Shown piece by piece: positions 25,659-30,964 of a DNA stretch of 64,000 nt. The notes under the pieces were generated by a model. It was not told where the DNA came from and did not search any database. It saw only the letters and a list, made by a program, of their open reading frames with translations. The stretch comes from Candidatus Gastranaerophilales bacterium. GTDB lineage: Bacteria > Cyanobacteriota > Vampirovibrionia > Gastranaerophilales > Gastranaerophilaceae. Each line of letters begins with the position of its first letter. Positions within the stretch are counted from its first letter, which is position 1. Location of the stretch: contig CALVEC010000007.1 of NCBI GenBank assembly GCA_944326475.1, positions 62,001 to 126,000 on the forward strand. Direction: 5' to 3'. The position numbers and the translations under genes were made by a program.

Positions 25659-28292
25659 TTAAAATTGTTTCAGGTATTCATCCGGTGCAACCACGGTAAT
25701 AACAGCTTTATTTGTGTTGAAATACTTATTTGCAACTCTTATAATGTCACCGGCTGTGACTGATTCGATTATTGACGGATATTTATCAATAAAGTCAAAC
25801 CCTCTGCCGGAAGCTTCAAACCAGCCTATAGTTGCAGCTTTTTCAGCATTAGTTTCCTGTGAAAGTATAAAATTGCCGAGAATTTTGTCTTTTGCTTCTC
25901 TCAATTCTTTATCAGCAACAAACTCTTTTTTCAGTATATCTATTTGTTTAAACATTTCATTTTTTGAATGGAGAGCTGTTTTCGGATTTGTGCCGATAAA
26001 TACGGCAAACAGCCCGCTGTTAACATTCGGAACAAAAACAGAACCCACCTGATATGCAAGTCCCTGTTCATCTCTAAGCCTGTTAAAAAGACGAGAACTC
26101 ATGCCGGAACCCATTATTGCATCAACAACTTGTAGCGTTGCAGCATCTTTTATATTTGTAAGCCCGTCCGTCTGCCATCCAAGTACAACCCATGCCGCTT
26201 CGGAATCTTTAGCTTTTTTTACAAAAACCCGGTTTTGCAGAGGTTTAAACAAGTCTTTGTAATCGGAATACTTCACGCTTTTTGTATTGTTTGCACAAAA
26301 CATTGAATCAAAATAGTTTATCATTTCTTTATCACTTATATTGCCGTTGATGGAAATAATAAGGTTTTGCGGGTTGGATATGCTTTTATAATAATTAACA
26401 ACCTCCTGTTTTGTTATTGCAGGAATTATTTTTTCAAGAATCTTACCTGTTCTTCCGTAAGGAGTTCCTTTCCAAAGTTCTGTTCTAAATTCCTCAAAAG
26501 CTACATTTGATGGCACATCCCTCTGTTTTTCAATTGCGGCAAGTTTTTCTGTTTTAACTTTTTCAATATCCTGTTCATCCAGGGTTGCATTGTTCATTAC
26601 CTCAGAAAGCAGCTCCATTGCAAGAGCCAAATCAGGTAATGTTGTTTTTACAGAGACAGAAAAACTGTCAGGAGTGTTTGACGGAATAATTTTTATGCCG
26701 TTTTGTTCCATAATCTGCGACAAATCAATACCAGAGAATTTTTGTGTCCCCTTAAGCATTACAGATGATGTTACTGAAGCAACACCGGGTTTTTGTTCAG
26801 TAAAAGAACCGCCTTTTGAAAAAATTTGAATTGCAATTATGTCATTTAATTTGTTATTGTTAATAAGAAGTGTTGCACCGTTTGAAAGCTTGTATTCTTT
26901 GGTAGATTGATTCTGATTAATAAGTTTTGCCTGAGATTTTTTGACATCAGCAATCGGTTTTGTCTCTTGTTTTTTAATTATCGGAGTTTCCGGCATAATA
27001 ACAGAAATCACTGCATGCTGAGGATTCAGATATTTTTTTGCAGCATTAACTATTTCATTTTTTGTAACCTTTTGAATATTAGGAATGTATTCATCGTAAA
27101 AATCAGGATTATTATAAAGGAGTGTTATATATCCGAGCTCACTTGCAACATTAGAAGTAGACTCGCGAGCATAATAAGTATCTCTTTCTATGATACTTTT
27201 TGCAGTTTTAATGTCTTGTTCATCAAAGCTTCCCTGTCTCATTTTTTCAATTTCACAAAAAATACTGCTTTTTAATTTGTCTAAATTTTCAGGTTTAAAG
27301 TTTGCCTGTATGTAAAAAATACTGTCATCTTTCATTGAGGAGTGACCGGAAGAAATGCTGTAAGCGAGCTGTTTTTGGTCTTTTATAACATGGTACAGTT
27401 TTGAAGATCGTCCGTCCCCCAAAATTGTTGCAAGCATATCAAGCGCATACTGTTCCTTTTTGTCAGCAGCTTTAACACCTCTAAAACCTATCAAAAGATA
27501 TCCGGTTTTTACATTGTCGTTTGTAATAATTTCCTGTTGCTTTTCAAGGTTTTTATCCATTTTATATTCAGGGAGTTTTACCTTTTCTTTCTCCTCCATT
27601 GCAAACTCTTTTTTTACCATATTCAAGGCGTCTTCTGTGTTTACATCTCCGACGATTACAGTAATCATATTTGACGGACGATACCATTGATTATAAAACT
27701 CAAGAATTGCTTCTCGAGGAATGGTTTCTATAACCTGTCTTGTTCCGATAACATTTCTTTTATAAGGATGATTTGAATAAAATTTTTCATTCATCTGTTC
27801 ATAAAGTCTGTTCTCTGTAGAATCCTTTGTTTTGGATATTTCTTCCAACACCACTTTTCTTTCTTTTTCAAGCTCTTTTCTCGGAATCAACGGATGAAGC
27901 AGCATGTCGGCATGAAGCTCTATTGCTGTTTTAAAATCTCTTGAAGGAATAGTTATATAGTAGTGCGTAAAATCCTTGCTTGTTGCTGCATTAGTAACTG
28001 CGCCTTTCGATTCAAGGATTCTGTCAAACTGTCCTGTCGGATATTTTTTTGTTCCCTTAAAAAACAAATGTTCAAGAAAATGTGCAACACCGTTATTCTT
28101 GTCTGTTTCATTAACAGAACCGGTTTTTATCCATGTATCAATAGTAACTATAGGATTGTCATGTACCTCTTTTATAATAACCGTTTGACCGTTGTCCAGC
28201 TTAAAGACTGAATAATCCTGTGCAAACACACTTACACAAGCATAAAATATAAAAACAAAAACAGAAAAAAATATTTTATTACACTGTTTCAT
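25659..28292 (-). CDS. M16 family zinc protease, two-domain, exported
   Basis: An 877-residue protein with a signal peptide (KIFFSVFVFIFYACVSVFA) and two M16 peptidase halves. The first half has the inverted zinc motif HFLEH in GVAHFLEHLFFKGT, with the third ligand Glu expected about 75 residues on (near KERKVVLEEISK). The second half (from about residue 460) lacks HxxEH and has the R/Y-type substrate-gripping strand (AYQVGSVFVPNVNSGLFAV), as in mitochondrial processing peptidase pairs. It probably degrades peptides in the periplasm. AAAGGGG precedes the ATG. It lies directly upstream of smpB. Confidence 0.92.
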   Translation of the reverse strand: MKQCNKIFFSVFVFIFYACVSVFAQDYSVFKLDNGQTVIIKEVHDNPIVTIDTWIKTGSVNETDKNNGVAHFLEHLFFKGTKKYPTGQFDRILESKGAVTNAATSKDFTHYYITIPSRDFKTAIELHADMLLHPLIPRKELEKERKVVLEEISKTKDSTENRLYEQMNEKFYSNHPYKRNVIGTRQVIETIPREAILEFYNQWYRPSNMITVIVGDVNTEDALNMVKKEFAMEEKEKVKLPEYKMDKNLEKQQEIITNDNVKTGYLLIGFRGVKAADKKEQYALDMLATILGDGRSSKLYHVIKDQKQLAYSISSGHSSMKDDSIFYIQANFKPENLDKLKSSIFCEIEKMRQGSFDEQDIKTAKSIIERDTYYARESTSNVASELGYITLLYNNPDFYDEYIPNIQKVTKNEIVNAAKKYLNPQHAVISVIMPETPIIKKQETKPIADVKKSQAKLINQNQSTKEYKLSNGATLLINNNKLNDIIAIQIFSKGGSFTEQKPGVASVTSSVMLKGTQKFSGIDLSQIMEQNGIKIIPSNTPDSFSVSVKTTLPDLALAMELLSEVMNNATLDEQDIEKVKTEKLAAIEKQRDVPSNVAFEEFRTELWKGTPYGRTGKILEKIIPAITKQEVVNYYKSISNPQNLIISINGNISDKEMINYFDSMFCANNTKSVKYSDYKDLFKPLQNRVFVKKAKDSEAAWVVLGWQTDGLTNIKDAATLQVVDAIMGSGMSSRLFNRLRDEQGLAYQVGSVFVPNVNSGLFAVFIGTNPKTALHSKNEMFKQIDILKKEFVADKELREAKDKILGNFILSQETNAEKAATIGWFEASGRGFDFIDKYPSIIESVTAGDIIRVANKYFNTNKAVITVVAPDEYLKQF

Positions 28293-28437: not shown

Positions 28438-30039
28438 ATGTTTAATTATTTTACCGGGGACAAAATGAGATACAATGACTGTGCCGTACAGGGAAGCTGC
28501 AGCGTAGATCCTCTCGTCTATTCACTTAGTGAAGTTTTGCTGTATGAATTAAAACAAATTACATATTACATAGTAAAAATGCAAGAACTCGGATATGAAA
28601 ATCAAACGCTTAAAGATAAGATTATAAAATATTTATCTTTAATTGTTATCGGCTACGAGTTTAACCGCAAAGAGTTTGAAAATATAATAAGGGACATTCA
28701 TATTGAAAAAGAAAACGCACAGAAAGTTTTTATAAAAATCTGTGAGGAGAAAAATCTTGACTGCCAAATACTAAAATCTCCAATAAAACTGGACTCTTTC
28801 GACTTTTCGTCAATTGTAAACGAGGGAGAAAAACAGGCAATTTTAAGAAACAAAACTCTTTCAACAGCAAACAAAAATCTGACTGAAATAATTTTGCAGC
28901 TGTTAAAAAGTGCAAGTATGCGGCTCATGGAGCTAAAAGCTTATACCAACGACACAAAAGAAGACGAAAACGCTGTTTTAAAACTGTTTAACAGTCTGAA
29001 TTTTACATCAATCAGCTCAGCAAAACTGTTAAAAAAGATAAACGATTTTGCCAAGATAAACTTTGAAATTCATCAAAAATTACACAGAGCGCGTGAAGAA
29101 TACTACGGAAAAATAAGACTAAAAGAAGTCTCTTGCTGTGTAAAAAAAGGTCCGGCAATTCTGGCATCAGGGCAAAATCTGAAAGACTTTGAGCTTTTGC
29201 TTGAAGCTTTAAAAGGTGAAGATATAAATGTTTACACACATGACAGTCTGATTGTTGCACACTCTTTTCCAAAATTTGATGAATACAAAAATCTTGCCGG
29301 ACACTTTCAAAAAACTCTGGACAATTTTCAAATGGATTTTGAATTATTCAAAGGCGCAATTTTAATAACAAAAAATTCTCAGCACAAACTCGACAGACTT
29401 ATGAGAGGCAGAATTTTTACCACAAATGAACTTTCCGGCAAAGGAATGACAAAAATAGAAAATAATGATTTTAAGCCTATAATAGAAGCTGCTAAAGAGG
29501 CTAAAGGTTTTAGTGAAGAAATTGATTTTCATTCCTTGAAAGTAGGTTACAACGAAGACATGGTAATGAAAAAAGTTGAAAGTATTGTTGAAAAAATCAA
29601 AAACGGAAAAATAAAACACCTCTTTATTATTGGTTTAATAAATCATACGCTGTTTTCTTCCGAATATTTTAAAGAAATTCTTGACGAACTGCCGGAGGAT
29701 TGTTTTGCAATATCTACCGTAATTGAATCTGACAGAGATAACATCTTTCACTTAAATTCCTTTTTTAATACATCTTTAATTTACAAAATACTTGACAAAT
29801 TAAAACAGGAAATAGATTTTGACACTTTTCCGATAACCGTTTTTCTCACACGCTGTAATCTGCATACCATCTCTCATCTGTTCAGCCTCAGGCATCTTGG
29901 TGTAAAAAATATATTTTTACCGGTCTGTTCTGCAGATATTATTACACCGAATATGGTTAATTTTCTTTCAGATAAATTTAACTTTTTAAAAACAACATCA
30001 AACGCTTTAGAAGATTTAAAAAAAGTTATGACGAAATAA
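28438..30039 (+). CDS. Hybrid-cluster-protein (Hcp) homologue lacking the cluster ligands
   Basis: A 533-residue protein that aligns along its length with hybrid cluster protein (hydroxylamine/NO reductase). Fold landmarks are kept: GPAILASGQNLKDFELLL, INVYTHDSLIVAHSFPKF, GAILITKNS, RIFTTNE and LRHLGVKNIFL. Against remembered Desulfovibrio Hcp numbering, every hybrid-cluster ligand is replaced: His244 by Gln246, Glu268 by Ser270, Cys312 by Ser314, Cys405 by Ile401, Cys433 by Ile429, Cys458 by Phe443, Glu492 by Asn474. Of four N-terminal cubane Cys, only Cys15 and Cys21 remain (3 and 6 are Asn and Thr). It is therefore unlikely to be a reductase; structural or regulatory use is possible. TAGAAT lies six bases before the ATG. 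Confidence 0.8.
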   Translation: MFNYFTGDKMRYNDCAVQGSCSVDPLVYSLSEVLLYELKQITYYIVKMQELGYENQTLKDKIIKYLSLIVIGYEFNRKEFENIIRDIHIEKENAQKVFIKICEEKNLDCQILKSPIKLDSFDFSSIVNEGEKQAILRNKTLSTANKNLTEIILQLLKSASMRLMELKAYTNDTKEDENAVLKLFNSLNFTSISSAKLLKKINDFAKINFEIHQKLHRAREEYYGKIRLKEVSCCVKKGPAILASGQNLKDFELLLEALKGEDINVYTHDSLIVAHSFPKFDEYKNLAGHFQKTLDNFQMDFELFKGAILITKNSQHKLDRLMRGRIFTTNELSGKGMTKIENNDFKPIIEAAKEAKGFSEEIDFHSLKVGYNEDMVMKKVESIVEKIKNGKIKHLFIIGLINHTLFSSEYFKEILDELPEDCFAISTVIESDRDNIFHLNSFFNTSLIYKILDKLKQEIDFDTFPITVFLTRCNLHTISHLFSLRHLGVKNIFLPVCSADIITPNMVNFLSDKFNFLKTTSNALEDLKKVMTK

Positions 30040-30157
30040 CATTATTGAAATAAAAATAATGAAAAAAACTGTAAATTTTTGTAAAAAAGGCATAGTTTAC
30101 TGACAATATTAGCCTTTTATGCTCTTTATAAAAACACACTCAGAAAAAGGAGAAATT

Positions 30158-30964
30158 ATGCCCATTCCATTTTTACAAACAGTGAAAAAATTGACATACA
30201 GATTTAATCATGGCGGTTTTGAACAAATGGGATTTGTACAACACCCCAAAGACACAAGAACAGCCGAACAAATAAACAACAACCTTGAAATATATGCAAA
30301 ACAAATACCGGAAGTGCAAAAATTTATAGAAGATTTAAAAAAATTATCCCCGGAGAACAAAGCTCTTGTCTCTGATGTGGTTGAAAGAGCAAATGAAAAT
30401 TTATTATTAATGACAGATATAGACCTGAAACACAAAATCAATGGTCAAAGTATTCTCGAAAAACTTTTGGGAGACATTATTGCGGCAGAAAAAACAACTC
30501 CCGAATCACTGAATTTTTTAAAAACAATAATAAACAACACGGATTCACATACCGCTAAATACGCTCTTGCGGAAATGAGCGGCGGAATCCTAAAAAATAA
30601 AGAGGTTGCAAAACAATTTGAAGCGTCACAAGAAGCAGTGCCTTTAATAGCAAAGCAAACTCTTAATGGCGGATATCTCGGTACTTTTGAAAAACAAAAA
30701 AACTTTATGGATTTTATAAAAGTACTTATTAACCCAAAATCAAAACCCGAAAATATCAAACTTATTCAAGATGTTCAAAAAACTGTTGACAATCTGGAAA
30801 ACGCAGAACAAGTCTATCTTGACACCTTTGTTCGTGCTGATGTTCCGGTGGAAAAATTAAAAGAAAACATCAAAACCCTTCCAATTGCTGCTGATTTGTT
30901 TAAAAAAGCAGGAAAAAATCTCGATACAACAGGCTATTTGACGAATAATACAAACCTTTATTAA
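30158..30964 (+). CDS. Helical protein of unknown function
   Basis: A 268-residue protein. ATG 30158 is preferred because AAAGGAGA lies just before it; the longer frame starting at 30119 has no such site. It begins MPIPFLQTVKKLTYRF, has HGGFEQMGFVQHPKDTRTAEQ, and continues as predicted amphipathic helices (EVQKFIEDLKKLSPENKALV, KYALAEMSGGILKNKEVAKQ). No signal, membrane segment or motif is recognisable. Its end overlaps gmk (convergent) by four bases. I do not recognise the family. Confidence 0.65.
   Translation: MPIPFLQTVKKLTYRFNHGGFEQMGFVQHPKDTRTAEQINNNLEIYAKQIPEVQKFIEDLKKLSPENKALVSDVVERANENLLLMTDIDLKHKINGQSILEKLLGDIIAAEKTTPESLNFLKTIINNTDSHTAKYALAEMSGGILKNKEVAKQFEASQEAVPLIAKQTLNGGYLGTFEKQKNFMDFIKVLINPKSKPENIKLIQDVQKTVDNLENAEQVYLDTFVRADVPVEKLKENIKTLPIAADLFKKAGKNLDTTGYLTNNTNLY

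Follow-up and report, generated by a model that had tools for sequence, protein, structure and literature searches.

An unusual metal centre is what Hcp, the hybrid cluster protein, is known for; its role in the cell is under debate. Hcp occurs in classes I–III and is covered by the Pfam family Prismane (PF03063) and the NCBI equivalog model TIGR01703; to our knowledge, class I Hcp has no known electron donor. Both in Hcp and in Ni,Fe CO dehydrogenase (CODH; CooS), the cluster is held by loops of two Rossmann-like domains (PMC6957218), and hcp of classes I and III is frequently an isolated gene (PMC10210160). The window, that is, the whole stretch of 64,000 nt analysed here, comes from a genome whose close relatives are catalogued as Candidatus Gastranaerophilales, and it contains the following gene:

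28438..30039, + strand: degenerate Hcp-fold protein, 533 aa (ATG at 28438, stop at 30039; Pfam, PDB and structure matches)

The encoded protein matched Prismane with an E-value of 1.8e-36 (126.3 bits, gathering cut-off 27), and 22 out of 22 diverse members of its subfamily matched the same Pfam family. By phmmer, the class I Hcp structure 8cnr aligned to residues 1–531 (E 3e-39), with no gap in the cubane N-terminal region. E. coli Hcp (7de4) scored 308 bits against a profile of 22 family members over the span 12–531, and the alignment columns used below are therefore secure. With 232.9 bits, the window protein nevertheless stayed under the curated cut-off of TIGR01703 (360.8), which sets it apart from the Hcp equivalogs. 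We also predicted a structure from the window protein and five close relatives only; with such a shallow input of six sequences (mean pLDDT 65), the N-terminus and residues 229–369 were poorly modelled. Foldseek ranked Hcp first among PDB entries, and VIA-align gave Z scores of 20–21 for full-length Hcp chains. The likeness to CODH was much weaker (Z about 14 versus 21), in line with a distant common fold. The original prediction had claimed Hcp fold landmarks over all 533 residues with an ungapped N-terminus, and had proposed alignment with known Hcp and structure prediction as checks; phmmer, Foldseek and VIA-align agree on this point, confirming both homology and fold. What the subfamily shares with Hcp is thus full-length homology, the three-domain fold, the order of elements and the motifs around the site.

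Using E. coli Hcp (locus L031) as reference for the ligand columns, we aligned the proteins by MAFFT and phmmer, which gave the same columns at the C-terminal ligand sites. The former ligand positions are encoded as follows:

29173..29175, + strand: Q246 codon, at ligand His249 (alignment to E. coli Hcp)
29245..29247, + strand: S270 codon, at ligand Glu273 (alignment to E. coli Hcp)
29377..29379, + strand: S314 codon, at ligand Cys317 (alignment to E. coli Hcp)
29638..29640, + strand: I401 codon, at ligand Cys405, the persulphide Cys (alignment to E. coli Hcp)
29722..29724, + strand: I429 codon, at ligand Cys433 (alignment to E. coli Hcp)
29761..29763, + strand: F442 codon, at ligand Cys458 (alignment to E. 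coli Hcp and column position)
29857..29859, + strand: N474 codon, at ligand Glu492 (alignment; Asp/Asn in most of the family)
28480..28482, + strand: C15 codon, third cubane Cys, kept (C in 112/139 members)
28498..28500, + strand: C21 codon, fourth cubane Cys, kept (C in 112/139 members)

The window protein has lost the Hcp ligand set. The substitutions Gln, Ser, Ser, Ile, Ile, Phe and Asn are exactly those listed in the original prediction, which was also right about the loss of two of the four cubane cysteines, since Cys 3, 6, 18 and 25 of E. coli Hcp correspond to N3, T6, C15 and C21. Its residue numbers were only partly those of Desulfovibrio: 244, 268 and 312 are D. vulgaris positions, but 405, 433, 458 and 492 are E. 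coli positions (406, 434, 459 and 494 in D. vulgaris). None of the nine cysteines of the window protein (15, 21, 102, 109, 233, 234, 422, 473 and 497) can slide onto any lost Cys ligand position, and no alignment restored Cys, His or Glu at the replaced sites. The loss extends beyond this one protein: among 78 aligned degenerate members, 57 kept none of the seven hybrid ligands, 12 kept one, 8 kept two and a single one kept three. The THG and SG motifs near the old site are still present.

The window genome also encodes a canonical Hcp with all ligands on contig C13. As this intact protein is the product of a separate gene on another contig and not an orthologue, we rejected a frameshifted orthologue as the source of the degenerate protein. 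Within the order, common neighbours of canonical hcp are genes for Rrf2-type regulators, ferredoxin-like proteins or cupins. In other families (L037, L038, L039, L041 and L042), a gene for a ferredoxin-like protein carrying two Cys-rich cluster motifs precedes or closely neighbours canonical hcp, often with an Rrf2-type regulator nearby; this ferredoxin-like protein could donate electrons to class I Hcp. Partial forms were found as degenerate members in families f6 and f7. The f7 protein encoded at L040:803-2446 keeps four cubane cysteines and three hybrid ligands, with H249, C433, C458 and E492 replaced, and others have lost more ligands. L040, L108 and L205 (all f7) are intermediate forms, with an rpoC-like gene nearby in L040 and L108, and the f7 genomes G046 and G049, which have intermediate forms, carry canonical Hcp as well.

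A match to the window protein was detected in 270 of the 288 genomes of its family (228 of 235 good genomes and 39 of 41 genera), although a genome match alone does not tell canonical from degenerate Hcp. Most best matches in the family scored far above the canonical Hcp of the order against this query. Of 36 family genomes sampled first, 34 had a match, and for 20 of these it was the only one, meaning that no separate canonical Hcp was detected there. The degenerate proteins formed one clade apart from canonical Hcp (SH-aLRT 100), as did their family f1 portion of 98 rows (SH-aLRT 100), and the stable subfamily that had been anticipated is borne out by this single clade and the number of matched genomes. 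For a set made up of the genus's four species plus one near relative, we obtained 0.07–0.29 non-synonymous changes per site with synonymous changes near saturation, and a dN/dS of 0.035–0.1 where computable. Such low values indicate that 28438–30039 is a working gene; its frame is open in nearly all relatives, and the earlier view that it is not a pseudogene stands. In a class-level sample outside Gastranaerophilales, all members checked were canonical and none was degenerate. We found no paper in the open literature joining Hcp with Gastranaerophilales, Melainabacteria or the term pseudoenzyme. Tandem arrays of degenerate genes were observed twice, with three copies in L102 (G014:C145, about L102:8610-13480) and two in L101 (L101:416-3680, G018:C41); the tandem copies belong to different subclades.

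To rank conservation we used a non-redundant family set of 98 rows and 533 columns. Three cysteines of the subfamily are new with respect to Hcp and highly conserved:

28741..28743, + strand: C102 codon, new (C in 130/139 members; 94% of the non-redundant set; rank 28/533)
29854..29856, + strand: C473 codon, new, Tyr/Phe491 in Hcp (97% of the non-redundant set; rank 15/533)
29926..29928, + strand: C497 codon, new, Thr/Ser515 in Hcp (97% of the non-redundant set; rank 16/533)

The old hybrid-ligand columns ranked only 163–454 of 533, whereas C473 and C497 came 15th and 16th. Because these columns drift, the expectation that the substituted positions would be conserved holds near the genus only: Q246, N474 and others are kept in the near-genus clade but not across the family. 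The same family-wide drift led us to reject the idea that the replacement residues form a new metal site where the old ligands were. Only eight columns were derived and, at the same time, conserved to 85% or more, namely S22, E32, C102, L166, D300, R323, C473 and C497. None of the 13 canonical proteins in the main set has a Cys in the C102 column, which is variable among them; a Cys does occur there in four canonical Hcp from family f8. R323-G324 and D300 are nearly invariant in the subfamily, and canonical Hcp has other residues at R323 and D300; the new function therefore probably needs more than cysteines.

C473 and C497 tend to occur together. Both were present in 130 of 137 rows and both absent in 6, with a single row having just one of them. 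On the tree, they differ in three independent pairs, nearly always jointly and never oppositely, which is not significant on its own (p 0.25). C473 lies one residue before the Glu492 ligand column. In the predicted model, strands 466–469 and 491–494, which are consecutive in the C-terminal Rossmann-like domain, end just before C473 and C497, respectively, suggesting that the two residues may face each other and be spatially close.

A second line of evidence comes from gene order. A glutaredoxin gene lies directly upstream of 66 out of 139 degenerate members (one type in 43 cases, another in 23), compared to none of 12 canonical hcp genes, and in 61 of these 66 cases the gap to the putative start of the Hcp-like gene is 1–13 bp. 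In one large clade, the gene mostly sits close to rpsL and rpsG, within a conserved block and with a small CPYC glutaredoxin just upstream, and a second clade has a different, GrxC-like glutaredoxin at this position. This again differs from hcp, which is found as an isolated gene or with hcr, Rrf2 or ferredoxin neighbours. We counted one or two glutaredoxins per genome in a sample of twelve; G009, G021, G035 and G071 yielded none besides the neighbour of the Hcp-like gene. About half of the members, including the clade of the window, have no glutaredoxin neighbour; for these clades we found no shared neighbours. The window gene itself has none, and the sole glutaredoxin detected in its genome is encoded elsewhere (C4:31742-31933). 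Homologues of GshA and GshB, the two enzymes of glutathione synthesis, are present in the window genome. The G011/G071 lineage has lost C473, C497 and C102 and yet retains a glutaredoxin neighbour, which speaks against the pair as the target of glutaredoxin. This glutaredoxin reads CPYS and so is without its second Cys, which would fit a coupled pair but is only suggestive, because five more CPYS neighbours occur in a clade that keeps the cysteines.

The gene upstream of the window gene gave no further clue:

25659..28292, − strand: divergent gene for an M16-type peptidase (found next to the Hcp-like gene in this genus and in genus g6)

We found no evidence of a functional link between this peptidase gene and the Hcp-like gene. 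Downstream, a 281-aa open reading frame (30119–30964, + strand) has no Pfam match and was not seen next to the Hcp-like gene in any relative compared. Deriving a function from the window neighbours (M16 peptidase, SmpB and the 281-aa frame) was rejected, as no link was conserved.

Taken together, the conserved new cysteines beside an emptied site and the glutaredoxin operons point to a protein that was probably repurposed for thiol redox work, rather than to a dead gene or an inert one. Our main reading, to which we assign a probability of about 0.5, is that of a dithiol/disulphide redox protein with the Hcp fold and with glutaredoxin as its partner. Here, the three-domain fold would have been kept while the hybrid cluster and the four-Cys cubane were abandoned, the hybrid cluster being lost step by step, and the pair C473/C497, perhaps with C102, would have arisen in the emptied cavity. 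Electrons may then pass from GSH via glutaredoxin to C473–C497 and on to a substrate or client. The disulphide chemistry of this pair, with glutaredoxin as reductant, would also apply to the window copy. The protein could thus be a glutaredoxin client in a glutathione-using cell, working either as a reductase that depends on thiols or as a redox switch. Ribonucleotide reductase, ArsC and PAPS reductase are glutaredoxin-dependent thiol reductases; the likeness to them lies in the proposed mechanism only, where a Cys pair or thiol is reduced, and no homology is claimed. More tentatively, we envisage that the fold of an ancient iron-sulphur-oxygen enzyme was converted once to a metal-free thiol-redox enzyme with a Cys pair in the same cavity, glutaredoxin as donor, a near-core distribution in the family and an undescribed reaction. 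The original prediction of a pseudoenzyme with a new role was correct in that the ligand set is lost in a selected subfamily, but the sense of a protein without chemistry appears doubtful given the new cysteines and the glutaredoxin operons.

Alternatively, C15, C21, C102, C473 and C497 might bind Fe-S or zinc in a new metal site, perhaps between two subunits, with glutaredoxin delivering or protecting the cluster. Some glutaredoxins do carry [2Fe-2S] clusters, and the former cubane ligands C15 and C21 are retained in 112 of 139 members. However, C15 and C21 behave as a second pair that is lost in another clade than C473/C497: an entire clade with linked glutaredoxin genes lacks them but has kept C102, C473 and C497, whereas another lineage without C473/C497 retains them. 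This separate loss means that the residues do not form one obligatory site, making a single five-Cys site unlikely. The neighbouring glutaredoxins are, moreover, mostly of the dithiol CPYC type, and we consider a metal site of this kind unlikely overall.

A non-catalytic scaffold or ligand-binding protein, in which the new cysteines are structural, would account for the wide drift at the ligand positions, the retained fold landmarks and the part of the family that has no redox neighbour. Cytoplasmic proteins rarely have structural disulphides, however, and two distinct glutaredoxin pairings at operon spacing would be unexpected for a redox-inert protein, so that we regard a scaffold as improbable. 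It is harder still to argue that the old site supports Hcp-like chemistry to this day by means of a cofactor not yet recognised. Asp or Asn is common at the former Glu492, the THG and SG motifs are kept and partial relatives exist in f7, including the one with four cubane cysteines and three hybrid ligands; but all four Cys ligands are lost in most members, and the Phe, Leu and Ile that replace ligands cannot bind iron, which leaves this explanation very little room. Lastly, only the loss of ligands as such speaks for decay or misalignment: a decaying pseudogene is hardly credible under purifying selection, with open frames in nearly all relatives and matches in 270 of 288 genomes, and neither is an alignment artefact, given the same columns from two aligners, the 308-bit profile match of E. 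coli Hcp over 12–531 and too few cysteines to refill the sites.

A large, selected subfamily that has the fold without the centre constitutes a natural experiment on what the Hcp fold can do. The label 'hydroxylamine reductase' on Prismane matches in these gut bacteria is likely wrong, and the partial forms in neighbouring families may reveal the order in which ligands were lost. If our main reading is true, these proteins would offer a clear example of simple thiol chemistry taking the place of a complex metal active site.
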